The position numbers and the translations under genes are program-made. Under the pieces are notes generated by a model. The model worked only from the letters and a program-made list of their open reading frames with translations, was not told the DNA's origin and did no database searches. Positions 3,844-32,606 of a stretch of DNA of 34,817 nucleotides are shown piece after piece. This DNA is from a virus: the IMG/VR virus record IMGVR_UViG_3300042307_000152, positions 1-34,817 of that record; one strand, written 5' to 3'. The first letter of the stretch is position 1, and each line of letters starts with the position of its first letter.

Positions 3844-6800
3844 ATGGCAAAGTTTAGCAGGAACTTCACAGCAGGGAGAATGAATAAGGTCTATGACCAA
3901 AGAGTTGTCCCTGACGGAGAATATATTGATGCCATGAATGTAAGGATGGGGTCTACTGAGAAATCAGAGATTGGTGTAATTGAAAACACCAAGGGCAATA
4001 CTCCTTTGACTTCATTGAGCTATATTGATGGAACCCCTCTAAGTTCTGCTGCAAAATGTATTGGAGCTATTGAGAACAGCTTTACCGAAACTATTTATTG
4101 GTTTCTCCATGACCCCAACTTTCCTGTTGGAGCCACAGGCAAGCTAGACTTGATAGTGTCATTTAATGTTAGCACAAACATATTGACCTATCACGTCATT
4201 TCAATTAATGATGGTGATAACGTAAATACCACTTTGAATTTTAACTCCAACTACCTTATTACAGGGGTAGATATCTTGGACAATAATCTTTTGTTTTTTA
4301 CAGATGACTACAATCCTCCTAGAGTTATAAATGTTCAAAAGAACTATCCTAACCCAATTGCAAATGTTGATGAGGTTAGTGCTGAGTCTTTGTTGGTAAT
4401 TAAAAAACCACCAACTGAAGCTCCACAGATACAGCTTACTGTAGTTAACAACCAAGAGAATTTTTTGGAAACACGTTTTATTTGTTTTGCATACAGATAC
4501 AAATATGAGAACGGAGAGTATAGTGCAACATCACAATGGTCTGCGCCTGCGTTTATTCCTAAGCCTTTTAACTTTAGTGCTGAAAGCTTTTTGAATGAAG
4601 GCATGACTAACTCTGCTAACTCAGCAATAATTACTTATAACTCAGGGGGACCTCTTGTAGTTGGAATTGACCTTTTGTTTAAAAAAGCTGACGGAAATTT
4701 AATTCGTGTAATTGAAAAGCTTGACAAGGCTAATCTAGGAATTGGTAATAATGAAAATCGCACATATCAATTTACAAATAGTAAAATATTTACTGTTCTT
4801 TCAGAATCTGAGCTACTAAGGCTTTACGATAACGTGCCAAGGTTTGCTAAGGCCCAAACAATTATGGGCAATCGCCTTATGTATGGTAATTACATTGAGG
4901 GTTATGACCTTATAGATAATGTTGGCGCTCCAGTAATGTTTGATTACAGCGTTGATTTAGTCTCTTTACCAATTGGATTAAAAGAGGTTGACACTAGTTA
5001 TGGAAATGGAACATATTTTTACGTTCCTGTAACAGTACCTGATTCAATTTTGGAATTTGATTTAGATGGTCAAAATCTTGTAGCAGGAGCTGCCATTACT
5101 TTAGATTTTACAATTAATCACGTAAGTTTTTCAAGTGTTGTACCAGTTGAGAACCCGCCTGAACAGGAAAATAATAATATAGATTTAAATTTTTCTTTCT
5201 TTTTATTAAAAGATTATTCATCGGTATATGAGTTAGCTACAAGTGTTGAGTTCCAAGATGCAATAGGAACAACTGCTAATATTCAGCCTATTAATAACGC
5301 TTGTAATGGCATTACATTTACAGACACATTTAATTGTGTGTTACAAAACAACTTAGATGATTTCGTAAAATCAGGAAGCGGAATCACTTTTGTTGGTCAA
5401 CCATTTGGCATTATTACAAGTCCTGCGAGTAGTGTAATTGGATTGCAAGTTCCTTTTATGCAGTACATCAATAGTACCATTTTACCTAATGAAACAGTGT
5501 ATGAGCTTTTTGATATATCATCGGCTAGTGCCACATTTCAAGAAGTAGCAAATACACAAAGTCTACACAGCAACAGAGACTATGAGATTGGAATTGTTTA
5601 TATGGATGATTTCAATAGAGCATCAACGGCTTTGGTTAGTGAAAATAACACCGTACACATACCTTGCGGAAGTTCTGCATTTCAGAATTCTATTCAGGTT
5701 ACAATACCACCTGCGCAACGTCCGCCAATTTGGGCTACAAGATATAAGTTTGTCATTAAGCCTGACCAAGAAAATTACGAGACAATTTATTGCTCGATAT
5801 TTTTTAAAGATACATTTAGCAATGACACATACTTTCTTTTGGAAGGAGAGAATTCAAGAAAAGTTGAGGTAGGAGATAGATTGATAGTAAAGGCAGACTC
5901 AAATGGTCCAACACAAACTTGTGTTTATGCAACCGTTCTTGAGAAGTCATCTCAGGCATCTGGGTTTATAGAAGTGCCAAGTGAGTTAAATCCTGAGGAG
6001 CTCATAACTGTCCCAGCTGGTGTTTATGTAAAGATTAATGCCAATAGCTTTAACGCATTTCAAAACGAACAAAGTGTAATTGCTCCGGGTAAAATTGAGG
6101 TATGGAGAGATAAAAAAGGAACCTATCCTATTTTAAGTTACCCTATGAATCAAGCGGGTGTAGATGAAGATAACCCTAGCTTTGGATATGTTGACTACCT
6201 TGTTCCTGCTGGCAGCAGAATAACCTTTGATTTAAAGTTTCAAAGACTTGGCCCCGGTGATGGAGATAAAATATGTGAGAGACGTATTTATACTTTAGTA
6301 AAAACCTTTACTTCTTCCGCTGACTATGACAACATGATGGATTGGTTTAATGGAGATAATATTGCTAGATTTTTAAATGATGGAATTCAAGATGTGGGTG
6401 GTGATGGGTGTCCTATAGAAAACAAGTATATAGAGGATGCGCTCGAAGCCTCATCTCTTCCTGCCTCTCCATTTGCTCCTGATTCACCATCTGAATGTAC
6501 AAATCTTTACAGGTTCTTTAGAAACACATCATCAAATCAGTTGTCATTATTAATGTCAGGTACAGAAAGGTGCGATGGGGCTGGCGCAGGAGAAAAAAGA
6601 AGGTCAAGTATAATTGCAAACATTCAAGTTTTTGAAGCCAATAATGTAATTGTATTTGAAACGGAGCCATCAGAGGCTTTGCCTGACGTGTTCTTTGAAA
6701 ACAATATGTCTTTTCCTATTGTTAATGGGAACCACGAGGGCAATGTTCAGGACCAAGACATTGACGCAGGGATTCCAGCTATTATTGATACCAAGTTCTT

Positions 6801-8328: not shown

Positions 8329-9981
8329 ATGGCTACAAGTTCAACATATTATTTAAACGCTCCATCACTAGGCTCCGCTACAGCTGTGTTCACGAACGCA
8401 GCTTTAACGGTATGTGCCCCCAATGGATTCTATTCAGACGGTTTCATATCAAGGGAGTTAGTTGACTGCGTACTTTTACCTCAGCAAATCTGTCCTTCTT
8501 GCACTATACCTTGTGATGAATCTATATCTGCTGATGGGTTACAAGGCATCTATTATCTTAACACAGACTTAGGTGCTGCTATAGGAGCTGTTATAATTAG
8601 ATTCAATACCGTAAACATCCCTGATGGTATCAAAGCTGTTTATAATAGCGTTGTGTACAATGGCGTTTCTTCACCGACATCTGGATGGCTTCAAGGTACC
8701 GCAGGGCTTCCAACCTATATTGGATTGCAATCTGCTGATTGTGGTATCGTGGCAGGTTCTCCTTATACTTTGGCTGAGTTTCAATACGATGGTACGGACT
8801 TTGCTGCTCTTGGCACAAATACATCTGTGAGTGTATTGGCTGGACAAATGGAGTTAACAGTATTGGCTCCGGGGAATACGCTGATGGTTATACCAAAGAT
8901 AGCAGCAAGCCCATCAATATTGAACCTTGAATTCATTGGGCCATGCTCAGGGACTGTATTTGATATTTCAGTTGCCTGTCCAGCTGCGCTTACAGCATTC
9001 TCATCAAGCACAGTGAGTGCGACTAGTGAGTTAGCTTGTGAAAAAGATTTTCTTGAAACATATTATGTCGCTCATGTAAATGGGTCTTCTGGTACGTTAG
9101 GATTATACGACTTAGTTTTCAGTGATGTCAATGGCCAGTTTAAGTTGGGGGCAGGTTTCTACAAGACTAATGACGCAGGTGCTAATAATTGGTATCAGGT
9201 AGATGCTAATGGAGCAATTGTTTTGTTTGGTACTTGTCTGGTTCCAATCCCTTGTGGCGATGCCATAGAGGGGGACGGAGCTCAAGGGGTATATTATATT
9301 GAGTCAAATGTCGGAACAGGTACAGGGGCAATTATTGTTAGCTTTAACCCACAAAGTTTGACTGATGGTATATTAGCCACATACAATGGTGTAAACTATA
9401 ATGGACTATCTTCACCAGTATGGGGATGGAGACAGGGAACTGCAGGGTTACCTACCTATATTGGCAGTACAGATTGCAATTTAGTCGCAGGCTCTCCTCA
9501 TCCTGCTGTCCCTCAGTTTGAGTATAATGGAACTACTTTTGCTCCATTAGGTACAAATTTAAATGTAACTGTATTGGCAGGACAAATGCAACTTACTGGG
9601 ACAGAACCGGGACTATGCATTATGGTTATACCAAAGACAGCAGCTAGTCCATCTACATTAAATATTAGTGTTTTTGGAATTTGCTCAACAACTTTATTTG
9701 ACATAGACATTAATTGTCCAGCTCCTTTAACATCATTTGCATCTAGTCTTAATAATTTTGACAGCTCAACTGCTTGTGTCAACGCTATTGACCAGACATT
9801 CTACGTAGCCCATGTCAATGGTGCTGCTGGGGTACTCGGTCTATATGACCTAGTGTTCAGTGATGTTAATGGTCAGTTTAAACTAAGCACGGGCTACTAC
9901 AAGACAACGGCAGCTGGAGCCAACAACTGGTATCGAGTGGATTCTAATGGAGCGATTATTCAATTTGGAACTTGTCCTTAA
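8329..9981 (+). CDS. Tail protein with two ~245-residue repeats (550 aa)
   Basis: A 60-residue N-terminal head (TYYLNAPSLGSATAVFTNAA; PNGFYSDGFISRELVDCVLLP) is followed by two homologous modules at residues 61-304 and 308-550. Shared landmarks are PC-x4-I-x2-DG-x-QG-x-YY, GTAGLPTYIG, NxxVxVLAGQMxLT, MVIPKxAASPS, AHVNG, GLYDLVFSDVNGQFKL and FGTC. All residues suggest beta-structure, and Cys pairs recur at equivalent places. It follows the stabilisation protein by 18 bases, so it is probably an appendage or tip component. A receptor-binding role is possible but not shown. The N-terminal head probably docks it to the tail. Confidence 0.7.
   Translation: MATSSTYYLNAPSLGSATAVFTNAALTVCAPNGFYSDGFISRELVDCVLLPQQICPSCTIPCDESISADGLQGIYYLNTDLGAAIGAVIIRFNTVNIPDGIKAVYNSVVYNGVSSPTSGWLQGTAGLPTYIGLQSADCGIVAGSPYTLAEFQYDGTDFAALGTNTSVSVLAGQMELTVLAPGNTLMVIPKIAASPSILNLEFIGPCSGTVFDISVACPAALTAFSSSTVSATSELACEKDFLETYYVAHVNGSSGTLGLYDLVFSDVNGQFKLGAGFYKTNDAGANNWYQVDANGAIVLFGTCLVPIPCGDAIEGDGAQGVYYIESNVGTGTGAIIVSFNPQSLTDGILATYNGVNYNGLSSPVWGWRQGTAGLPTYIGSTDCNLVAGSPHPAVPQFEYNGTTFAPLGTNLNVTVLAGQMQLTGTEPGLCIMVIPKTAASPSTLNISVFGICSTTLFDIDINCPAPLTSFASSLNNFDSSTACVNAIDQTFYVAHVNGAAGVLGLYDLVFSDVNGQFKLSTGYYKTTAAGANNWYRVDSNGAIIQFGTCP
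8509..9978 (+). repeat. Tandem coding duplication in the 550-aa tail gene
   Basis: Copy 1 spans about 8509-9240 and copy 2 about 9250-9978, offset by about 247 codons. The proteins share long motif blocks, while the DNA has diverged widely, including at synonymous sites, so the duplication is old. Confidence 0.85.
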
Positions 9982-13946: not shown

Positions 13947-16900
13947 ATGAACGAACAGGCTATTATAGACTCATACAACCTAGCGGTACAGAATGGATAC
14001 AAGAAATCAGTTGATGAATTTAAGACATTGCTTTCTACCAATTCAAATGCTTTAAATGATATTTATAATTTATCCGTACAAAATGGATACAAAAAATCAA
14101 TAGAAGATTATAAAGTATTGATGGGTGTATCCCCTATAAAAGCCTCAGGTCAGGAGCCTGAAATGCCAGCAGAGTTAAAAAAAAAAGACGATACTACGGC
14201 ATTACCTTCGGCACTTGGTTCTTTGGCTTCGTCCGTATCAGCTGAAGCAGACCCTGAAGCATTACGTTTTGCTGAGTTAGTATCTAAGCAAGGTCAGGTT
14301 GTAGGCAAGAGAAGAGACGAGCCCGGATACATAGACCCTCGTAAAAAGTTGGGTATGTATCCAACTCAGGAGGAGACTAACAAGGCCATGACCCAATTTG
14401 TTGCTGACATAGATGCTAGCAAGGGGATGGCTCCTGAGTATGAGGAGAAGGATTTTTTTGAAGGAGGAATTGGTACTGCGCTTCGTACATTTGATACGTA
14501 TTCCCCTATACCACTTGGAGAAGCGATTGATGATACTGCTAGAACATTGGCATCAGGATACGCACAAGGACAATTGGCTTCAGCTGCAAATGAGTTGATA
14601 CTATCAGGACCTATTCCTAATGATGAGACTATAGAAAAATTACTTGAATATAGCAAGATGGCTCAAGAGTTAGGTCCGTCTGATGCGTTTATAAATTATC
14701 AAAAAAAATCTGAAGAAGTAGGAGGCGGTTTTTGGGGATTTTTTAGAGGAGTATCAGACAACCCTGCAGTATTACCTGAGCTAATCGTTAATTCATTTAC
14801 AGCAATGGCCACCAACAAGGAGGCTGTATTAGCAGGAGCAGGGGCGATATTAACTAATGCAATAGCTACAGCCGCATCGGCAGGAATTCCAACGGCTGGC
14901 GCAGGTGCTGCCCCGGGATTTGTGGCTGGAGCTGCATCAGCTCTACCTGTAGCAATGGGATTAGCAAGTGGTATTTTAACTACAGGAGCAACTTTTGCTG
15001 AGCTACTTCAGCAAGAATTAGGGACGGATGAGAACGGAAATCCTATTCAGCCTACAAAAGAAAACACAAAGGCTATACTTGAAGACCCTGAAAAGTTTAA
15101 TAAGATTAGAAATAAGTCTATACTAAAAGGCGCTACAGTAGGCGCTATAGATTTTTTTACTGGCAAATTATCATCTGCTGTTGGAGCTAAGATATTAAGT
15201 AAATCGGCTGCTACTTCAGCAACAGGAGAAGCCACTAAATCTGCATACACTAAATCTCTCGCTTCGGGCGGAGTTATTGAATCAGGAGGCGGAGGTCTTG
15301 GAGAAGCTGCTGGAACTGCTATGGCAGGAGAAAAACAAAATCTTGAAAATATATTATTTGAGATGGTTACTGAAATGCCTATGACGGCAGTAAGTACAGC
15401 TCAAGCAAGACTAGCTGCTCCTGTTTATAAGGTTAATAATAAAAAGGTAACTGGAGAACAGCTTGATGAGATTATCGATACGATGGAGCCTGATGATTTA
15501 GCCAGAGCAAATATTAAAATCGAGAATGATTACGAGGGCCGTAACAAAAGAATGCAGGATAAGATTGTTACTGGAGCCATAGCAAGAGAAGTAAGGTTTG
15601 CTCAACCTGATTTGAATGAGCCAACCGTTAATGCTATTGTAGAATTACAGAAGCAGTTAGATGCATTAGATGGAAACAAGACTCAGGTAGCTAAAGATAA
15701 AGCTGCTCAGATTAGAGCAGATATAAAGAACCTGCAGGAGAATCCAATTATAGAAACTAAACCAAAAGAAGATGCCGTTCAAGAGCAAGCAGCAGGTGAA
15801 GTACCTGTTCAGTCAGGAGCCACAGTTAGCGAAGAAGTGGCGCAAGGAGAACCCCAAGCAGAACCTCAAGTCACTGCCGAAGCGGGTGTCCAAGAAGAAG
15901 TAATAACTAAAAAGCAACTACCTGAAGGTGTCGTTATAGAAAGTGCTATAACTGAAGAGGGTGAAATAGATTATGACGCTGAACAAGAAGTAAGAACCAT
16001 CGCTAAGAAAAGAGACCTTGGTATTACATCAGACAGAGAGATTGCTTATGTCGCAAGAGATGATGATGGTAATGTCATTGGAGGTGCATTCACATCGTAC
16101 GATGGAGATAAATATACTTTTGATGTAGTTGTTGATGAAGCTCAAGAGGGCACAGGAATTGGCTCTAATTTACTTGATGCTGTAATTGAAATTCCTTTTG
16201 ATATTAAAGATGAAAATCCAAAGGCAATTATAGAAGTGGATGTGGTAAATCCTGTAATGCAAAAAATGCTGGAGGCAAGGGGATTTAAAGTTAAACAAAA
16301 ATTAGGAGAGGGAAGAGTATTAATGCGGCCTGTGGCTCCCTCTAAAACTAAAAAAACTAAGGCGACTATATCTCCAGCTGTATCTCCAGCTGTATCTCCA
16401 GCCCCTGTTAAAGAAGAAGTAATAACTGATGACCAAATAGTTGAGTACAATCCAACTGAAGAGGTATCAGATAGGAACAATGAGGTGCTAGGTAAGGTAT
16501 TAAAGTTAAAGAAATTTGAACCACAGGCTGAACCATTGAGAACAGACCTTGGTGACTCTGTTGTCTTTGAGTACAACAACTTTGACGAGGATGAAACAAG
16601 AACCCGTCTTACATTTAAAAAGAAGAAGGACGGTACTATTACAGGAGTAGGTGTACAGATAGATAAAAACACAGGCGATATTCGTGGAACAGATTTATTC
16701 AGAAAATATGTAGCTTCTAAAAGAGCTGAACAATTACAAACAACTAAACAAGATACAAATGAAGCTATACCGACTGAGCGGATACAGCCAGAACTACGGA
16801 CTGTTCAACCCGAGACCAAAGCCACAACTAAGCCAGCAAAACCTAAAGGACCTACACCAGTCTCTACAAAAAGAGAGCAAGTCAAAAGCTCCATCCAAAG

Positions 16901-19900
16901 AGTCGCAAAGGCAGGACTCCTCCGCTCCGCAGAAACAGGGAAGCAAACAATAACCGAGCAGGAGATTGATGCCCAGATGGCATTGACAGACGCTATGGCT
17001 AGAGTTTGGCAAGAGACATCAGGCAAGGATAACTTTTACGAAACCTTTTTTGAAGACGTAAAGGAGGGGGATATTGATGCCATCAGACAAAAGGGTGGTG
17101 CTCTATTCCAAAGCACTGAGCTACCTCAGCTTCCTGTTACCAGAGTTACTTTAGCTGTGTTTGAGCTTCCTGAGTTTCAGAAGATGAAAGGCAATATGGT
17201 AGCTCCTCAAGCTGTGAGCGACCTAATGAAGTCTCGTGGCAAGCAAATTGAAAAGGACATTGTAAATACAGTACTGTCCTACGACAAGTACCAAGGCCAG
17301 AAGAGAATTTCTTTTGATGAGTTCAAGGATGATGTTGAGACTCAGCTAATGAAGCTCGAGCGTATTGATACAACAACATACGCTTCTTATGGTATGGATA
17401 ATCTTGGTGATGAGCAAAACTATGGGACAGCTCAGACCATTATATTCAATAGCCCTATTGACCATGGTCAGTTTGGTCACTTCCGAAATGACTTTAACAA
17501 TAGAGCTATTCAAATTACTACTTGGAACATTCGTCAGGTACCAAACACTGAGCAGTATGTAGCGATTGATGCTAATATGCCGGCCGGTGTTGAGCAAAAT
17601 GAAATGGCTCAGTACGTGGGCACAGCAGGACCTCTTGCTGATGTGCAGAGATGGGTCAATGAAAGGAACGATATGTCCGAAAGGGATATTAATGTAGGAT
17701 TGTTCGGACACATTCGTAATTGGTTTAATAGAAATACTGGGGTATACACCTTAGCAGAACTACAAAGCGACTACTTCCAAAAGAACAAGGCCAATGATTT
17801 GTACGCATCAAAAATCCCTCAAGAGGAGATAGATGAATACATGAATAAAAACTTTAGAAGCAAGCTTGATAAAGAAACACGTGAGCTTTTTAAGAAGGAG
17901 TTTAACATTGAGACAAAGTTTGTACTTGATGAGAATGGTAATAAAAAAGCTGTTGGTTCATTTGACTCAGAAGGAGAATTACTTGTATTAGAGCGTATTG
18001 ATGGATACACTACCCCTCCTATTGGATACGATGTTATTGAGAACGCAGAGAACAAAATAGTTATTGAGGCTGCTAGACTATTGGCTAGACAGGCTATTCC
18101 TTACAGTGATGTTGCTACAAGATATAGCGAACTTCGAGATGAGTATGAAGTAAAGCGAAAGGAACTAAAGAAAGAAGAGTACAAATACATAGCAAAACGA
18201 GTAGAAGAAGTTAAGAAGTCAGAAGCTGGCAACTTAATGCTTAGTCAATTCGTGGCTTCACAGAAGGTTCACGAGCTAAGACTATTCAGAGAGTCGCTTA
18301 AACACGCTGCAGACAAAGGAGCTACTGAACTTTGGTTCCCTACACCATATACTATTGCTGTAATTGAAGGATACGTAAGTGACAAAGGCACTCCTCCTTA
18401 CGAAATTATTCGTGGTGATGATAACTATCTTGAGCCCGGAGACCTTATTGATTACGGTGGAACTCGAATGATTGTCGTAGAATCAGGTGGTGACTACATA
18501 ACTGTTGCTGCTAGAGATTCTGTTTCAATATACGATATTGATGACCTAAGAAGAGATGAGGTCGATAACCGAATGAGTGAGTTGGAGTACAGCTTAGAGC
18601 GTCAGGTAAGTGATATAAATGCAATAACAAGACAAGAAGCTGAAGAGTATGAGACAGACGAGTGGATGTCTGAGAATATTAATGATGAATTGAACTCATA
18701 CTTTGAAAATAACCCTGAAGAAGAAACTGTTTCTTGGAATAAAATAATAAAGTTCGATGTAAGAGATAGGGTAGAAAAAGAGTATGACTACATGACCCCA
18801 CAAGACTTGGCATCTTGGGCAGAGGAGATTTATGAAGATGGTGATACTATCTATACGATTGATGAAAGAAGGGCTACAGAAAATCTCGGACAGCCTTCAG
18901 AATATGAGAGCAATGTAAATGAAGATGACTTTGAGGACCAGCTTAGTGAGACCCAATCTACTATAGTCAACAAGTACGGAGAGCTTGGTGAGATGATTCG
19001 CAAGATGCGACCTGATGCTGAGATAGTAAGAGATAACAATGGTAAGGCTTGGATTAAAACAGAAATCACAGCAGCAGATGCAAGCAATCCAATCATTGCT
19101 TTCCAAGAAGAGGGCGGCAAGATAAAAGGAGCTATTGATTTCTCTAACGATAACAAGGCTTCGGTCTACGTTTTTGATGGCGCTGATATATCTACACTTA
19201 CTCATGAAATGAGTGGCCACCTTGGCCGTAGGGTTCTCGAGAAGTTAGCTGAGACTAATGCTGATTTCGCAAAAGACTATGAGACTGCTAAAAAGTGGGC
19301 TGGCGTTGAGAACAATCAATGGACCCGTGGTGCTGAGGAGAAGTGGGCCAGAGGGTTTGAGAAATATTTAAGGTCAGGTAAAGCACCAAGCAATGCGTTG
19401 AAAAACGTATTTGAAAAACTGAAGGATTGGCTTACGAATATTTACAAAACCATTAAGGGTAGCAGCATAGACATTAAGCTTACGCCTAGCATTACTTCTG
19501 TATTTGATAACCTATTAGCCACTAAACAAGAGCAAGGCAAAGAAGTAGATGTACTAGAAGATGCTTTTGATTTCCTTGACAAAATAGATAAAGGCATTTC
19601 AAAAACATTAAAGACAAGAGCTAACGATGCGTTGCTTGGCATTCCTCTAACTGCTATTCAAGGAATGGTTAAAGGCCTGAAGGCATTGGTTCAGGGTGGC
19701 ATGAAACTACGTGATGCCATTAAAAATATAGCTGCAGAAAACAACATCTCTCAGGAGAAGCTTAGAGACATCCTTGATATTGCTAGTATCCAAGAGGATT
19801 TCAATACCTTAATGGATAAGGCTGATAAGTTGATAGCAACTCAGAAATCAAAAGAGATTCCTGAAAAGAAGATTGTATCCAACTTGGATAAAATGGTCCG

Positions 19901-22900
19901 AGATTTCTATAAGGATTTGGATGTCAATGATGCCCAGCGCAAAATCATGGAGCGTGAAGCACGTGCTAGAATGGGTGTTGAACCACGTAAAGCTGCATCA
20001 ATTGGCCGTGTTATCGGTGTACTCAAGGACATTACCAACGTAACTAGAGAAGAGAAGCTAAAGATTATCTCAAGGATACGTGAGCTAGGAAGAGACGTGA
20101 CTAAGGACTTGGCTAGTGAGATTAGAGAGTTGGCAGCATCTGGAAAGATTACTGCCACTCAAGCTGCTAGTATTGTTGCTAGAACACTAAAAATAAATCC
20201 ATTGAATGAAGCCTCTGTATCCAACTTTGTTGATTACATGGCGAAGGTATTCTCTAAGGCTGATTACGTTGGAAAGATGGGTACTGCTTTAAGTCAAATT
20301 AAGCAGGCCAAGAAAAACATTAAGACTAAGATTGGTATTTCTCAAGACCTATTTGAGCCATTAAATCAATTGCTATCAATCAACCCAACACTTATTCCTT
20401 TGAATCAATTGGAGAAGTACTTGGGCATATTAGAAGACTTCAGCGCAAGAAAGGTTGTCCTTAGTATCCCCGACAGAGTCAAGGCATTGAAACAAGTCAA
20501 TGAAATACTTGAAGAGGTAAGCAATGAGTTTTCTTTGGTTGACGAACTTGCGGATAGGTTTAACAACTACGAGGGCAAAGTATTTAACGAAGATGGCAAC
20601 CTTAGCTATGCTTCAACTATCAAGGACATGATAGACGGTGGTATAATTACTACTGATGAAGCAGACTTGATGAAGAAGTACAAGTCTGAGATACTTCCTC
20701 AGGTAGAGCCTACGCCTGCTACTGATGCGGAAATTGAAGCAGATAAAAAGAAAGAAATAAAAACATTAAAGGAGCTAAAGATTGATAACAAGGAGTTCCC
20801 GTTGCCTAGCCGTAATGAGAAAGAGGATGCATTAAATCTAGCAAAGCTTATCAAAGAACTGAGCGTTGAGGACCTAATGAACCTTCCTTTGACTGACCTT
20901 AAAAATATAATAAAGGTTATAGGTAACATCAACAATGGATACCTTCCTCATTATGCCAAGGTATCTATAGAGAAACTTGAGGCTATCAAGCAAGGCAAGG
21001 TTCTTTCTGGTGCCATAGAAAAAGCTAAGCCTTTGTCTTTCTCAAAACTATACTCAAGATTAAAAGATAAGTTTACAAAAAAGGGAGCTATAGATGAGTT
21101 GATAAGAGCGAACCCATTGTACTACATAGACAACGTATTCGGTGACTTTAAAACAAGAGACATCTTTAACTCACTTCTTGAGAACTCTGCTCAGGCTTTG
21201 TCTAATTTTAACTCTGAGCTAAAAAGAGTGTCTCAAAAAATAGATACAGCTCAAAACAAAGTATTGGCATCGTTCAGACAGAACCCTGACAAGTATCTGA
21301 TGTCTAAGTTTAGAATGACAGCCTATATGCTTCAGCGTGAGTACGAGTCAAACGTAGGCAAGAAGGGTGTTAAGCCTGTCGCTGATTATCTTAATGCTAC
21401 TATTAAACATATTAGAAAAGGCAAGTCAGTCTTTAAAGAAGCTGATGCTGAGAAGCTGGAGAAGATACTTAAAGAGGTTGAAAGCTACACCATAGATGAG
21501 TTTTATAATACATTCAACAGTGCAGAGAAGAATGCCATTAAAGTGATGACTGAAATCAATGCATCTCTAGGAGAGAAGGCGGCCTACACTGCGTCTGTGA
21601 TACGTGGTAATAAGGTTGAGTTAATGGACAATTATTTTCACCACAATGTTTTGCATGAGCAGAACCCTATGGATGCTACGGCTGCACCTGAGTTCTCCAA
21701 TAGCTATAGCAACTCAATGCGTCCAACTACAAAGGCTAAGTCTTTGATTGAGCGAACAGGTGCTTTGACTCCACTAAACTTTGACTTGTTTACCTCTACT
21801 CAAAAGGGAGCCAAGTTTGTGTTGTTGGATTACAATATGACCTCTCCTATTCGTACCGCTAGAAGAACCTTGATTCAGGCAGAGAAGAACCTAGAGAATA
21901 AGGGCTTAATGGATAAGGAGAAGACTCAAATATTTAATGCCATAAACAATGCATACGAGGAAGCTCTTGAGAATATATTGACAAACAATATTGTTCAGGA
22001 TGACCTTTCAAATGAAGTGTTTGACTTTATTCAGAAACAAGGATACAGAGCTGCCTTAGCTGGCACTACTAGGTTCCAAGCTGAATTAGCTTCTAACATT
22101 GTAAACGCATTGTTGGTAAATCCTAAGGCTTTGGGGACAGGTATTATGAACGCAAAGCTTATTGCTTCTGCAAATGGGTATGAGTTCATGAAGAACGCAA
22201 AGTCAAAACAAACCTCTAGGCTTTATGCTTCTGATGCTCTATCTGGTAAATTGGTTGACCCTCAAATACTAAAGCAAACATCAGGCATAAAGGGCAGTGT
22301 ATCAAAAGGTGCCTTACTAAATAGAACAACTCAGATTTATAATCTTACTCTAAAAAAATTAGTTCAGAACCCTGTTGAATACATCGCAGATACCATGCTA
22401 ACCACTCCAGATAAAGTGGTTTCAATGCCACTTTGGTTTGGTAGCTTCATGAATGAGTTCAAAAGAATAACAGGGGAAGAAGTTAATCAGGAGATGATGA
22501 TTAACAATGACCTTGATTATATGCAGAAGAATGCAGATGCAATTGAGCAAGCTACAAGAAAGGCTGACCAAGACTCTGTGTACTCAGGCGCATCTAATAA
22601 CGAATTCATGGGTATCCTTAAAGGTAAGCTAAAGCCAGACCAAAGTTTCACACAAAAAGCTTGGAACAACTTCAACTCTTTCATGACCAACTTCATGAAC
22701 TTTGATTATGCTGCAGCAAGAAGTGCGGTCTATAATTTGTTCAACGAAGGGTACATGACTAAGCAAAAGGCTGCTGCTGTACTGGCTGGCATCACAACAA
22801 GGTCTGTAATCTATCAGGTTATGGTGGCTAATATGGGGGCTGGTATTGTTGGAGCTGCACTTGGCCTTGCATTCGATTGGGAAGATGAAGAAGAAGTGGA

Positions 22901-23795
22901 TGAGAAGTCATACTACCAAATGCTTGGAAGAGGATTGGCTAACGTGTTTGCTGGATATACCGTTGGCAGAAACTTTGGCAACGCAGTAAGAGGAATGGTG
23001 AACTTTGGTGTAGAAAAAATCAACGAAGAGTATCTTGACTTCCTTAGAAATGGAGAGTATGATTTCTACAAGGACAACATTGCATACACTTATCTAAATG
23101 TTGGTGACAGAGGGGATATAGATGTTCCAAAAATAGCTATCAATATGGCAGGTGCATATACTCCTGCATTGAACACAGCTGTATTGATAGGCAAAAACTT
23201 TGGGGCACTATCTAGCAGAGTAATGGGAGATGGTCCAACCAAAAAAGAGCCTGATGCTATACGAAGAGAGGATATGACTGTGAATTACAGAATACCTTTA
23301 GAGGTTGCCGGCAACGCAGGACTAATTCCTTTTTACAAAGACGTGAAGAGGGCTGTGAACGATGAGATTTATAAGGACCTACGTAAGGCTGCCAATACTC
23401 CTGACTCAAGCATCACTACTCCGGATGATTATGATAAGCTGAAGGACTTAAAAGAGCTAAAGAACAAGACTAGGAATCAGGAAGAGCGAAGAGCTATAGA
23501 CAAAAAGATTGTTGAGATTGTAGGTAGCGAAGAGGCTAAGGCTGCAATTGATAAGCAGAAGGAGATGTTGGCTGCAAAGAAGAAAAGGCTACTTTATGAT
23601 TCAAGCAAGGGACAGAGATACGATAATGAGAGTGACATGAAGCGATTGAATCCTTCCCTTTGGAGAAAAAGATTTGGCCCTAACTCGGATTGGAATAAAG
23701 AAACCAAGGCAAAGGAAGCTGTTGAAAGAAAATTACAAAAGGAAGCTACGGCTAGAGAAGACAAGGAATTTAAGAAAAAGAATAGGGGTAACTAA
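13947..23795 (+). CDS. Giant multidomain 'polyvalent' internal virion protein (3282 aa)
   Basis: Domains in order: two 22-residue repeats (8-29, 38-59; core VQNGYKKS); an Ala/Gly hydrophobic membrane-type region (~293-355, and ~395-418); an acidic Pro/Glu linker; a GNAT-like domain (~680-795) with an acetyl-CoA loop QEGTGIG at 733-739 and NPVMQKMLEARGF; a SPAV repeat linker (~808); a domain with GHIRNWF (~1254), ELQSDYFQ (1271-1278) and HELRLFRESLKHAADKG (~1442), known from giant phage proteins; a zinc-peptidase-like site HEMSGH (1753-1758) with EEKWARGFEKYL about 44 residues later; long helical stretches; and hydrophobic C-terminal helices (~2940-2978). It is probably packaged in the capsid and ejected with DNA, like T7 gp16. 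It is intact, with no frameshift, and overlaps the convergent gene by four bases. Confidence 0.75.
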   Translation: MNEQAIIDSYNLAVQNGYKKSVDEFKTLLSTNSNALNDIYNLSVQNGYKKSIEDYKVLMGVSPIKASGQEPEMPAELKKKDDTTALPSALGSLASSVSAEADPEALRFAELVSKQGQVVGKRRDEPGYIDPRKKLGMYPTQEETNKAMTQFVADIDASKGMAPEYEEKDFFEGGIGTALRTFDTYSPIPLGEAIDDTARTLASGYAQGQLASAANELILSGPIPNDETIEKLLEYSKMAQELGPSDAFINYQKKSEEVGGGFWGFFRGVSDNPAVLPELIVNSFTAMATNKEAVLAGAGAILTNAIATAASAGIPTAGAGAAPGFVAGAASALPVAMGLASGILTTGATFAELLQQELGTDENGNPIQPTKENTKAILEDPEKFNKIRNKSILKGATVGAIDFFTGKLSSAVGAKILSKSAATSATGEATKSAYTKSLASGGVIESGGGGLGEAAGTAMAGEKQNLENILFEMVTEMPMTAVSTAQARLAAPVYKVNNKKVTGEQLDEIIDTMEPDDLARANIKIENDYEGRNKRMQDKIVTGAIAREVRFAQPDLNEPTVNAIVELQKQLDALDGNKTQVAKDKAAQIRADIKNLQENPIIETKPKEDAVQEQAAGEVPVQSGATVSEEVAQGEPQAEPQVTAEAGVQEEVITKKQLPEGVVIESAITEEGEIDYDAEQEVRTIAKKRDLGITSDREIAYVARDDDGNVIGGAFTSYDGDKYTFDVVVDEAQEGTGIGSNLLDAVIEIPFDIKDENPKAIIEVDVVNPVMQKMLEARGFKVKQKLGEGRVLMRPVAPSKTKKTKATISPAVSPAVSPAPVKEEVITDDQIVEYNPTEEVSDRNNEVLGKVLKLKKFEPQAEPLRTDLGDSVVFEYNNFDEDETRTRLTFKKKKDGTITGVGVQIDKNTGDIRGTDLFRKYVASKRAEQLQTTKQDTNEAIPTERIQPELRTVQPETKATTKPAKPKGPTPVSTKREQVKSSIQRVAKAGLLRSAETGKQTITEQEIDAQMALTDAMARVWQETSGKDNFYETFFEDVKEGDIDAIRQKGGALFQSTELPQLPVTRVTLAVFELPEFQKMKGNMVAPQAVSDLMKSRGKQIEKDIVNTVLSYDKYQGQKRISFDEFKDDVETQLMKLERIDTTTYASYGMDNLGDEQNYGTAQTIIFNSPIDHGQFGHFRNDFNNRAIQITTWNIRQVPNTEQYVAIDANMPAGVEQNEMAQYVGTAGPLADVQRWVNERNDMSERDINVGLFGHIRNWFNRNTGVYTLAELQSDYFQKNKANDLYASKIPQEEIDEYMNKNFRSKLDKETRELFKKEFNIETKFVLDENGNKKAVGSFDSEGELLVLERIDGYTTPPIGYDVIENAENKIVIEAARLLARQAIPYSDVATRYSELRDEYEVKRKELKKEEYKYIAKRVEEVKKSEAGNLMLSQFVASQKVHELRLFRESLKHAADKGATELWFPTPYTIAVIEGYVSDKGTPPYEIIRGDDNYLEPGDLIDYGGTRMIVVESGGDYITVAARDSVSIYDIDDLRRDEVDNRMSELEYSLERQVSDINAITRQEAEEYETDEWMSENINDELNSYFENNPEEETVSWNKIIKFDVRDRVEKEYDYMTPQDLASWAEEIYEDGDTIYTIDERRATENLGQPSEYESNVNEDDFEDQLSETQSTIVNKYGELGEMIRKMRPDAEIVRDNNGKAWIKTEITAADASNPIIAFQEEGGKIKGAIDFSNDNKASVYVFDGADISTLTHEMSGHLGRRVLEKLAETNADFAKDYETAKKWAGVENNQWTRGAEEKWARGFEKYLRSGKAPSNALKNVFEKLKDWLTNIYKTIKGSSIDIKLTPSITSVFDNLLATKQEQGKEVDVLEDAFDFLDKIDKGISKTLKTRANDALLGIPLTAIQGMVKGLKALVQGGMKLRDAIKNIAAENNISQEKLRDILDIASIQEDFNTLMDKADKLIATQKSKEIPEKKIVSNLDKMVRDFYKDLDVNDAQRKIMEREARARMGVEPRKAASIGRVIGVLKDITNVTREEKLKIISRIRELGRDVTKDLASEIRELAASGKITATQAASIVARTLKINPLNEASVSNFVDYMAKVFSKADYVGKMGTALSQIKQAKKNIKTKIGISQDLFEPLNQLLSINPTLIPLNQLEKYLGILEDFSARKVVLSIPDRVKALKQVNEILEEVSNEFSLVDELADRFNNYEGKVFNEDGNLSYASTIKDMIDGGIITTDEADLMKKYKSEILPQVEPTPATDAEIEADKKKEIKTLKELKIDNKEFPLPSRNEKEDALNLAKLIKELSVEDLMNLPLTDLKNIIKVIGNINNGYLPHYAKVSIEKLEAIKQGKVLSGAIEKAKPLSFSKLYSRLKDKFTKKGAIDELIRANPLYYIDNVFGDFKTRDIFNSLLENSAQALSNFNSELKRVSQKIDTAQNKVLASFRQNPDKYLMSKFRMTAYMLQREYESNVGKKGVKPVADYLNATIKHIRKGKSVFKEADAEKLEKILKEVESYTIDEFYNTFNSAEKNAIKVMTEINASLGEKAAYTASVIRGNKVELMDNYFHHNVLHEQNPMDATAAPEFSNSYSNSMRPTTKAKSLIERTGALTPLNFDLFTSTQKGAKFVLLDYNMTSPIRTARRTLIQAEKNLENKGLMDKEKTQIFNAINNAYEEALENILTNNIVQDDLSNEVFDFIQKQGYRAALAGTTRFQAELASNIVNALLVNPKALGTGIMNAKLIASANGYEFMKNAKSKQTSRLYASDALSGKLVDPQILKQTSGIKGSVSKGALLNRTTQIYNLTLKKLVQNPVEYIADTMLTTPDKVVSMPLWFGSFMNEFKRITGEEVNQEMMINNDLDYMQKNADAIEQATRKADQDSVYSGASNNEFMGILKGKLKPDQSFTQKAWNNFNSFMTNFMNFDYAAARSAVYNLFNEGYMTKQKAAAVLAGITTRSVIYQVMVANMGAGIVGAALGLAFDWEDEEEVDEKSYYQMLGRGLANVFAGYTVGRNFGNAVRGMVNFGVEKINEEYLDFLRNGEYDFYKDNIAYTYLNVGDRGDIDVPKIAINMAGAYTPALNTAVLIGKNFGALSSRVMGDGPTKKEPDAIRREDMTVNYRIPLEVAGNAGLIPFYKDVKRAVNDEIYKDLRKAANTPDSSITTPDDYDKLKDLKELKNKTRNQEERRAIDKKIVEIVGSEEAKAAIDKQKEMLAAKKKRLLYDSSKGQRYDNESDMKRLNPSLWRKRFGPNSDWNKETKAKEAVERKLQKEATAREDKEFKKKNRGN

Positions 23796-24371: not shown

Positions 24372-24873
24372 GGTCTGACATAGTTTCAAACACTTGGACT
24401 AGTTTCTCGAATACTAAATGCTCTTCACCCAATGGAGTATTGATGTCAACAAGCTCGATAATCTTTCTTATCCTATCGTAATTGTCTTCAACTTTCTCTA
24501 ACCCACTTCTGTCCCAGACAGAGTAGTCCATCTTTGTACTTCTACTGGAGACATACTCATGTTGGTCCTGTACAACTCCCTTAATTGTTACAAAGAATAA
24601 ATCTTTACACTCTAGATATTTCTCCTTCACCTCAGGGTTGTACTTCAAAAGGTCTTCTACGTCTCCCATGTAGTACATATAAACCCCGTAGTCTCTCTTT
24701 AGAAATTCACAGATGTCCCAACTTGAGAATCCGATGTCACTTAGTATTTTACAAAACACCTTCCTTGCGTTTACGTTGTTTTGTTTTTTTGAATACTCTA
24801 AAATATTTGCTTCAAACTCTCTGTTCAATATCTGGGACAGAGCTTCCATCTTGGTATACTTATGCATTATCAT
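24340..24873 (-). CDS. Protein with possible DnaA domain IV-like helix-turn-helix (177 aa)
   Basis: The start is set at ATG 24873 (MIMHKYTKMEALSQIL), overlapping the stop of the VRR-NUC gene; ATG 24867 is equally plausible, and a GTG at 24918 would overlap more. The segment NVNARKVFCKILSDIGFSSW, then DICEFLKRDYGVYMYYMGDV, EDLLKYNPEVKEKYLEC resembles the helix pattern of DnaA domain IV (ARK - hydrophobic - G-x4-I-x2-F - x-V-x-YY). The C-terminus looks helical and ends in a basic tail. It may bind phage DNA in replication control. Confidence in the gene is good, but in the fold only moderate. Confidence 0.6.
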   Translation of the reverse strand: MIMHKYTKMEALSQILNREFEANILEYSKKQNNVNARKVFCKILSDIGFSSWDICEFLKRDYGVYMYYMGDVEDLLKYNPEVKEKYLECKDLFFVTIKGVVQDQHEYVSSRSTKMDYSVWDRSGLEKVEDNYDRIRKIIELVDINTPLGEEHLVFEKLVQVFETMSDHGKKTRERKC

Positions 24874-25120
24874 TTGATTCGATTCCTTTATAGATTTCAA
24901 CTTTAATTCCGTGAGCACGTAGCTCTTTTAATCTGTACTCCTGTAGCTTTGATACTCTACCCTTGGGTTTCTTCACTTCGTAGAACTCTACGTCTGAATC
25001 TCTTGGTATAGCTATCAGGTCTGGGATACCGTTCTTGTTGGTGTTAATCAACTTGATGACGTAGTATCCCTTGGCCTCCAGCTCTTTGATTAGTTTTGAT
25101 TGTATTTGTTGTTCTGTCAT
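24860..25120 (-). CDS. VRR-NUC domain nuclease (86 aa)
   Basis: The whole protein is one VRR-NUC module of the PD-(D/E)XK superfamily: an N-terminal helix with Glu (TEQQIQSKLIKELEAKGYYV), then NKNGIPDLIAI (catalytic Asp), FYEVKKPKGRVSKLQ (E-x-K, then the conserved S-x-x-Q), and LRAHGIKVEIY. Stand-alone phage VRR-NUC proteins cleave branched or flapped DNA; Holliday-junction cutting has been shown for related single-domain forms. It starts inside the stop of the preceding nuclease-like gene (ATGA overlap), which suggests coupled translation. It probably processes replication or recombination intermediates before packaging. Confidence 0.85.
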   Translation of the reverse strand: MTEQQIQSKLIKELEAKGYYVIKLINTNKNGIPDLIAIPRDSDVEFYEVKKPKGRVSKLQEYRLKELRAHGIKVEIYKGIESNDNA

Positions 25121-31212: not shown

Positions 31213-31983
31213 TTACATTAGGAACTCATCTATGTAGTAGTTCTCGATGTTGTCCGTAGGAGTGCTTCCGAAGTACTTAGAGAAGACTTCTATGGCTCTG
31301 CCTACCTTGGCCTCACCTGAGCGAATGAAGTCCTCAGTGGGCTTAAAAATGCCCAGTACTCCTGTACCCTTGTCAATCACATAAAACACCAATGGCTTGC
31401 CAAACAACTGCTGATAAATATAGCACTGCGAATCGTAGTTGTATGCCTTCGCTGAGTATTTAAACTTATGGATGTCGCTGGTAGTCTTCAAGTCAATCAA
31501 GAAGTCCCATCCAACAATGTCCGCCTTGCCCTTCCACATCATCCCCTGTATCATGCCTACAGCAGGTACCTCGTATTGGTTTCCTTCTCTGAAAATCTCA
31601 TCGTAGAATGTGATGTTGCCCTTGATGATGTCAACCAGATGTTCTACCTCCTCCATCTCCTTCTTGAGCATACAGAACGGCAGGTTATTGGTCTCGCAGA
31701 AGTTCTTGTACTCCTTGGTAGTCCTTGTGCTTACGTCAACGAATGGCGTTAGCTTAGCCTTTTCGGGCTCCAGAATCAATTGGTGAAAGTATCTACCATC
31801 CATGAAAGCCTTGTTGTCTTCCCGTGACTTACCGAAATCCTTTGGGTTATTCAGTAGCGTACCGATGTCAGAGTTGGATAGGTAGTTCTTACCTATACCG
31901 CTATAGTACTCCTTGTCATCTGTAAGGAGAGCCAAGATATTTGGCTCCCCTGTTAGGTCAATTGTCTCCAATAGTGTCTTCAT
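31213..31983 (-). CDS. RecE/YqaJ-type PD-(D/E)XK exonuclease (256 aa)
   Basis: Core motifs fit the DUF3799/RecE-C exonuclease family: RYFHQLIL with His67, GKADIVGWDFLIDLKTT with Asp155 and D164-L-K166 as metal-binding and catalytic residues, and DSQCYIYQQL as the Q-x-x-x-Y helix. It would chew one strand of double-stranded DNA ends and leave single strands for the annealing protein, whose stop overlaps this start by one base (TAATG). The two form a Red/RecET-like recombination pair. Length is that of the catalytic domain alone. Confidence 0.88.
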   Translation of the reverse strand: MKTLLETIDLTGEPNILALLTDDKEYYSGIGKNYLSNSDIGTLLNNPKDFGKSREDNKAFMDGRYFHQLILEPEKAKLTPFVDVSTRTTKEYKNFCETNNLPFCMLKKEMEEVEHLVDIIKGNITFYDEIFREGNQYEVPAVGMIQGMMWKGKADIVGWDFLIDLKTTSDIHKFKYSAKAYNYDSQCYIYQQLFGKPLVFYVIDKGTGVLGIFKPTEDFIRSGEAKVGRAIEVFSKYFGSTPTDNIENYYIDEFLM

Positions 31984-32606
31984 TATTTCAATAGGTCTAC
32001 GAGTGCTTGCTTCACTTCATTACTCAATTTGTACTTCCTGCTCAACTGCTGGCCTATCTTGTCAAACCCAAGTGCCTTGTTGTCCTTTGCGTACTTCACA
32101 ACTCCCTTCCAATTCTCATCGTCAACCACCAAATCAATTAGTCCTGTAGTAGGCTTAGCCTTTGCAGGCGCAGGTGTAGGTGCCGTTGTCTCAGCCTCAG
32201 GCAGGTCCTCACCAGCGTAGATGTAGATACCAAGGCCAAACATCGCTAGGTTCTTAACCAAACAACGCATCAAGGTCTTATTGATATCGAACGTAGTGGC
32301 TGCATCAACGGTCTTCCCGTACTTACCTGTGTACTCTCCCTTTCTCATAGACCTGTTGGCCCCATCCATTACAGGTAACCACATCCCCAGCGTCTCGCCT
32401 TCGATTGTCACCTCAGTCTGACACATGAAGCCAAGGGCCTCATCGTAATCTGTAGGAAGTATTTTGTACGTTGCATCTGGGCACTCTCGCTTTGTTACTG
32501 CCCATGCCCACGCCCACGATAAGTAGGTGAGGTCTTTCTTCTTTTCAACGTGTTCGTTGACGTTGATGGCCGATAGCCTTTCGAATACTGATTTTTTCTT
32601 TTCCAT
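31983..32606 (-). CDS. DUF1071-type single-strand annealing protein (207 aa)
   Basis: VFERLSAINVNEHVEKKKDL then TYLSWAWAWAVTKRECPDAT is the DUF1071 signature, with DATTTFDINKTLMRCLVKNL-like and AMFGLGIYIYAGED blocks further on. The family is associated with Rad52-like phage annealing proteins. After residue ~140 comes a Pro/Ala linker (TAPTPAPAKAKPTT) and a C-terminal helical piece. It pairs with the exonuclease encoded just downstream to join DNA ends by annealing. It may help replication or repair and make concatemers for packaging. Confidence 0.85.
   Translation of the reverse strand: MEKKKSVFERLSAINVNEHVEKKKDLTYLSWAWAWAVTKRECPDATYKILPTDYDEALGFMCQTEVTIEGETLGMWLPVMDGANRSMRKGEYTGKYGKTVDAATTFDINKTLMRCLVKNLAMFGLGIYIYAGEDLPEAETTAPTPAPAKAKPTTGLIDLVVDDENWKGVVKYAKDNKALGFDKIGQQLSRKYKLSNEVKQALVDLLK

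Follow-up and report, generated by a model that had tools for sequence, protein, structure and literature searches.

Giant multidomain proteins encoded near virion genes, in which GNAT, ART, kinase, ddrB-ParB, LPD and zincin-type domains are combined, have been known as polyvalent proteins since 2017; according to the passages available to us, the class, its presumed injection and the proposal that its own metallopeptidase processes it were all published in that year (Iyer et al., PMC5512222). The class is thought to be a first strike of the phage, and how its members acquire and exchange domains had been unclear. Crassvirus cargo proteins (crAss001, PMC10172136) are likewise large; they travel in the virion and are presumed to leave it ahead of the DNA. 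Moreover, a survey of phage domain mosaicism (PMC10684548) describes protein fragments that are shuffled between phage proteins; the terms “linker”, “polyvalent”, “ejection” and “internal virion” are absent from its text.

We analyzed a virus record of 34.8 kb from IMG/VR (this whole stretch is here referred to as “the window”), whose source is an aquatic phage that probably infects flavobacteria. Its giant protein shares size, multidomain make-up and position near virion genes with the polyvalent proteins of 2017. It differs from them in having short in-frame swap joints conserved at the DNA level and a zincin of HExxGH type; a search of PMC5512222 finds no “HExxGH”, and DNA-conserved joints are not described in the passages available to us. 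The main new element of our finding is the joint conserved at the DNA level, with the exchange of effectors behind it; it is also a new detail relative to the mosaicism survey (PMC10684548).

Layout of the giant gene

The gene is a single frame of 3282 aa, as claimed from the sequence at the outset, and is open throughout (Table 1). The Ala/Gly-rich hydrophobic stretch in slot A (aa ~293–355), QEGTG at 733, ELQSD at 1271 and HEMSGH at 1753, with EEKWARGFEKYL downstream at aa 1797–1808, all lie where the original prediction had placed them. The gene closes a rightward run; of the genes tested there, most match PHROG families, several of them for head and packaging; the genes upstream of it match PHROG head-and-packaging families, and convergent replication and recombination genes come after it. 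A Holliday-junction-resolvase-like gene at 24860–25120 (−) adds to the phage's own recombination set. The N-terminal tandem repeats are ~30 aa each, and a two-copy N-terminus, of the same or another sequence, is present in many relatives.

Table 1. Features of the giant gene and of two recombination genes in the window.
Feature	Position (nt)	Strand	Basis or remark
Giant ORF, polyvalent-type protein	13947..23795	+	phrog_32588, E 3e-85; phrog_9880, E 5e-30
Two N-terminal tandem repeats, YNLxVQNGYKKSxxxxK	13974..14120	+	57-nt direct repeat, 74%, spacing 90
Joint J0, aa 76–104	14172..14258	+	blastn: DNA island 86–97% identical to relatives with different downstream sequence
Slot A, aa 105–604	14259..15758	+	unrelated sequence instead in several relatives
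Joint J1, aa 605–653	15759..15903 (~145 bp)	+	conserved at DNA level
Direct repeat copy 1, left edge of GNAT cassette	15887..15925	+	39 nt, 77%, spacing 519 bp
GNAT cassette (slot B), aa 653–809	15904..16373	+	Pfam match and 93% DNA identity to L014
Joint J2, SPAVSPAVSP	~16374..16400	+	92–96% DNA identity to several relatives
Direct repeat copy 2, right edge of GNAT cassette	16406..16444	+	partner of copy 1
Small module, aa 826–928	16423..16730	+	common to L013 and L106, 82–83% DNA
ELQSD module, aa 935–1660	16749..18926	+	conserved in relatives; without Pfam match
Zincin-like peptidase domain, aa 1688–1872	19008..19562	+	alignment, model, profile comparison
HEMSGH motif (H1753, E1754, H1758)	19203..19220	+	conserved in clade
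E1798, putative third zinc ligand, in EEKWARG	19338..19340	+	invariant in 17 relatives
C-terminal core, aa 1952–3282 (~1330 aa)	19800..23792	+	constant part common to family
Exonuclease VIII-like recombination exonuclease	31213..31983	-	phrog_412, E 5e-26
Sak-like single-strand annealing protein, candidate engine for swaps	31983..32606	-	phrog_659, E 6e-53

Relatives and class membership

The phage collection held no close DNA relatives of the window. The closest isolates are Flavobacterium Elemovirus phages, in which a 3757-aa protein occupies the same genomic slot; its label, “structural protein”, comes from annotation, and the term “mass spectrometry” is absent from the text of a paper on Baltic Flavobacterium phages. 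This protein (elemoD) aligns to part of the C-terminal core and also has the joint, in two copies flanking a segment of ~130 codons. It differs in that the aligned core is only 22–23% identical and that it carries other cassettes, namely DUF3293 and a zincin-like site of HEIFH type.

We gathered 43 non-redundant giant proteins from IMG/VR by means of the core, the peptidase region and an upstream structural gene, with the elemoD protein included. The C-terminal core is common to this set, and the N-terminal and middle parts vary strongly between phages. Several unrelated effector-type domains are found in one polypeptide: the window protein combines a GNAT with a zincin-like site, and the relatives have PolyVal-type domains, with LPD23, Kinase-PolyVal, ART-PolyVal, ADPrib_exo_Tox and ddrB-ParB all above the Pfam cut-offs. 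None of the PolyVal or LPD models of Pfam matches the window protein, in which only the GNAT is above its cut-off, so that its assignment to the class depends on its relatives, its architecture and its context. Judged in this way, it is a member of the polyvalent class, and the PolyVal-type domains of its relatives and its head-and-packaging neighbours agree with the original description of a polyvalent-type giant protein beside structural genes.

Exchangeable cassettes and DNA-conserved joints

The GNAT fold, proposed initially from the motif, was recovered by Pfam PF00583 at aa 694–780 (nt 16026–16286) with 26.8 bits against a cut-off of 20.7. The NCBIfam models PRK03624/RimI also match this region (E 2e-5), under their cut-offs, and QEGTGIG at 733 satisfies the acetyl-CoA-binding motif Q/RxxGxG/A. 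At the DNA level the stretch 15766–16402 is 93% identical to L014, in which the neighbouring segments differ on both sides. From aa 928 onward, another phage, L019, matches the window at 97% identity; in this phage, a different segment replaces the GNAT and slot A is also different. GNAT and peptidase are not a fixed pair, and the GNAT is a cassette that can be exchanged, with DNA-conserved joints as its boundaries.

Blastn of the gene against its relatives revealed high-identity DNA islands (J0, J1 and J2) between unrelated stretches. Among 22 phages collected independently of the joint, 85–91% of the four-fold-degenerate sites of J1 are identical versus 38–42% of those of the core, at core identities of 30–55%. 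For 167 pairs with core identity of at most 70%, the identical fraction of four-fold sites was 0.81 in the joint and 0.42 in core windows of equal length, and codon usage alone would give 0.32–0.53; as phage pairs are not independent, these four-fold figures are a description and not a p-value. Such conservation of silent sites means that the phages have the DNA sequence itself in common, and suggests either exchange through the joint or a function at the DNA level. A distinct codon composition of the joint was ruled out (GC3 of 0.29, equal to the gene average of 0.29), and a search for RNA structure in the joint gave no signal (z = 0.37).

The family is a cassette mosaic, and its joint J1 is conserved at the DNA level. 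We found that 71 non-redundant joints, a few of which come from the scaffold-slot gene treated below, are followed by 35 BLAST-distinct downstream families and preceded by 12 upstream ones, with 40 different pairings; as some of these families may be remotely homologous (several resemble GNATs), the figure of 35 refers to dissimilar sequences and not to folds. The joint's position within the giant protein varies from aa ~500 to ~1300. Cassette edges carry direct repeats in the window, in elemoD (31 nt, 97%, 396 bp apart) and in L023 (33 nt, 85%, 426 bp apart). A second partial joint was seen behind the cassette in 5 of 67 cases and never in the shuffled sets, and flanking repeats are clear in a minority of cassettes only. 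Since the joint marks a cassette boundary, effectors not yet known could be mined behind it; several of the 35 families found so far are known effector types. In L101 and L124, a Kinase-PolyVal cassette stands right behind the joint and is followed by a partial joint copy and then by an ART-like segment.

A zincin-like site of HExxGH type

The zinc-peptidase site proposed at the outset is zincin-like and its residues are invariant, but HEMSGH is an HExxxH motif (HExxGH), one residue longer than the canonical HExxH. The residues S, H, E, G and H together with E1798 downstream are invariant in 17 of 17 aligned sequences, and the extra residue occurs in the window clade alone. Of the IMG/VR relatives retained, 80 in number, the 13 close ones (at least 60% identity) all have HExxGH and the 67 others all have HExxH. 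Because of this invariance, in the alignment as in the clade, HExxGH is not a product of decay or chance. The clade is a new observation.

Many podoviruses have homologues of the HEMSGH-bearing domain in their giant proteins, with E values down to 2e-21; these homologues carry HExxH, and the giant genes that contain them adjoin genes for internal virion proteins and structural transglycosylases/endolysins. In BPP-1 Bbp10, for example, the homologous zincin-like domain is 32% identical (E 7e-19); this giant gene, like similar internal genes of podoviruses, adjoins internal virion protein and structural endolysin genes, and it carries LPD22 and PBECR1. Bbp10 differs in that it has HESGH in place of HEMSGH, lacks the joint motif and, at the thresholds used, shows no match to the window protein outside the zincin region. 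On the crassvirus side, there is a weak zincin match in the crAss-like cr108_1 (E 1e-2).

An AlphaFold2 model of the zincin domain (51 sequences) reached a pLDDT of 75, with ~85 over the first 110 residues. Its order is three strands, the HExxGH helix and a later conserved helix with E1798; for polyvalent-protein peptidases, the available passages of PMC5512222 describe a three-stranded sheet, then the HExxH helix, then a glutamate on the next helix. The sheet-helix order and the next-helix glutamate of a zincin-like MPTase are thus present in the model, and the motif itself is HExxGH, not HExxH. Comparison by hhalign with the HEVAH domain of the window's relatives gave Prob 92% and E 5.7e-7. 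Pfam peptidase matches are weak and scattered only. The structure prediction proposed earlier for this region therefore bore out the strand-helix order with HExxGH and E1798, but yielded nothing useful in the PDB by profile search or Foldseek, so that the model makes a zincin fold likely in the window protein, not proven.

A comparable motif is known from dipeptidyl peptidase III (family M49), in which HEXXGH and HEXXH are used interchangeably with the same zinc site (PMC5805324). The likeness comprises HEXXGH, a downstream EExxA-type motif and the occurrence of hexapeptide and pentapeptide forms within one family; the difference is that profile and Foldseek searches of the PDB detected no sequence or fold relation, so the resemblance is one of motif only. 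Parallel to M49, the HExxGH clade shows a zincin-like active site that changes length within one phage family. The giant protein of L156 (3889 aa) has a second, different HExxGH site, HEILGH at aa 910, and also HEIGGH at 1930.

Joints in the scaffold slot

A 24-nt joint pattern matches at least 120 stretches in IMG/VR. Of the 80 contigs listed, 61 have it in frame within an unrelated gene of ~400 aa. Both the order of genes (terminase large subunit, portal, this one, capsid-sized gene) and homology to an Elemovirus structural gene put that gene in the scaffold slot; instances in environmental phages include L187 (frame at 5029), L163 (frame at 9429) and L216, among others. In the scaffold homologues of the window group that were read, elemoD and one IMG/VR relative, the joint is absent. 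A 33-nt core pattern was found in 35 contigs, always in frame and always within a giant-type ORF, complete or fragmentary. Among ~85,000 bacterial and archaeal genomes there were only 3 real joint matches, all of them in this phage-type scaffold-slot gene on MAG contigs, and tblastn of the joint against phage and plasmid records gave no match, possibly owing to the low-complexity filter. The joint belongs to a group of phages. Its presence in the scaffold-slot gene means that it is not restricted to effector swapping.

Proposed explanation and alternatives

We consider it rather probable that the giant protein is an internal virion protein for cargo or ejection, of the polyvalent class, with a constant core and exchangeable cassettes that are swapped at joints. 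It is probably carried inside the phage particle. The cargo or ejection role is suggested by the Elemovirus relative, which is annotated as a structural protein and lies in the same slot among structural genes, and by the podovirus zincin relatives, whose genes adjoin those of internal virion proteins. Exchangeability is suggested by the GNAT cassette of L014 with both of its flanks different, and recombination by the direct repeats at cassette edges together with the annealing protein and exonuclease encoded in the window. For packaging, ejection, catalysis, host targets and the recombination mechanism we infer the following. The phage would be podovirus-like and related to Flavobacterium Elemovirus; the constant C-terminal core would probably serve assembly or ejection, and the N-terminal and middle parts would be exchangeable cassettes acting on the host at the start of infection, in the window the GNAT, the ELQSD module and the zincin-like peptidase. 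Cassettes would be swapped between phages through homologous recombination at short in-frame joints, whose DNA is common to genes that have otherwise diverged; the annealing protein and exonuclease that the phage itself encodes are plausible drivers. The HExxGH peptidase would be one optional cassette and not an obligatory processor of the polypeptide.

As for the joint, we tentatively propose, as conceivable rather than probable, that a phage-specific in-frame DNA element of ~130–150 bp acts as a dedicated recombination joint or a small mobile linker in virion genes; if so, ejected effectors could be exchanged within the phage population in a way similar to the exchange of tips among polymorphic toxins. 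Its occurrence in the unrelated scaffold-slot gene means that it may alternatively, or additionally, serve as a functional peptide (capsid-targeting, scaffold-binding or a prohead-protease site) whose DNA identity merely reflects recent spread. Its in-frame occurrence in the gene between portal and major capsid genes of those 61 of 80 contigs, and in every giant ORF checked, fits such a peptide, and T4 internal proteins and scaffold share propeptides. We nevertheless regard a purely peptide function as unlikely, since the joint is absent from the scaffold homologues of the window group that were read, its four-fold sites are far more conserved than a peptide would need, and its place in the giant protein is variable. 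That the whole protein is an ordinary structural one, with fused domains as inert relics, would suit the label “structural protein” of the Elemovirus homologue and an ELQSD module without recognisable function; with catalytic motifs invariant in diverged members and exchanged parts that are repeatedly effector-type enzymes, this is highly improbable.

The peptidase invites two further alternatives to an active, optional cassette. The HExxGH variant could have lost its zinc and become a pseudo-peptidase, in line with the residue inserted between the ligands in the clade and with a model that has no PDB fold match; the retention of HE..GH in 13 of 13 clade members and of E1798 in the aligned members, and the M49 enzymes that swap HEXXGH and HEXXH at the same zinc site (PMC5805324), make this quite unlikely. 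It was also suggested initially that the peptidase cuts its own polypeptide into working parts, before or after ejection, which would explain the fusion of domains. Self-processing has been proposed for the polyvalent class with P1 DdrB as a precedent (PMC5512222, available passages), the catalytic residues are invariant in the clade, and disordered joints would be easy cleavage sites. As a required step, however, self-cleavage is unlikely: among 23 complete giant proteins sharing the core (more than 900 aligned core residues), HExxGH occurs in 3 and an HEVAH-type site in 6, and 14 have no HExxH or HExxxH, as is also true of most joint-sharing relatives. Moreover, the same passages note that N4 vRNAP has such a domain yet is packaged whole (PMC5512222). 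We thus consider a self-processing polyprotein very unlikely; by its motifs, a peptidase of HExxGH/HExxH type is optional in the family, and the putative enzyme may still cut the window protein or a host target. This census of relatives makes the self-processing hypothesis for the polyvalent class directly testable.

The ELQSD module and other segments

The ELQSD domain, singled out originally by its motif, is part of a conserved module: all six members of A2 have an identical AELQSD, and A-E-x-Q-S-D does not vary among ten sequences, which are 37–97% identical over the modelled region. The module was found neither in annotated phages nor in the 85k genomes outside this environmental phage set, and it gave no convincing PDB match by profile, none in NCBIfam and none in Pfam. 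A model of aa 935–1872 was of low confidence (pLDDT 64) and had no PDB match with E < 1. A GNAT-like nature of the module, indicated by weak rows only (E > 1), is not believed. By eye, it resembles the EIQSD domain of Microcystis phage JY33.

In L103, L104 and L111, as in L105, L107, L108 and L114, the peptidase region is replaced by other segments, which by eye are of RelA/SpoT type or a conserved HDxFGH module, neither of them above the Pfam cut-off.
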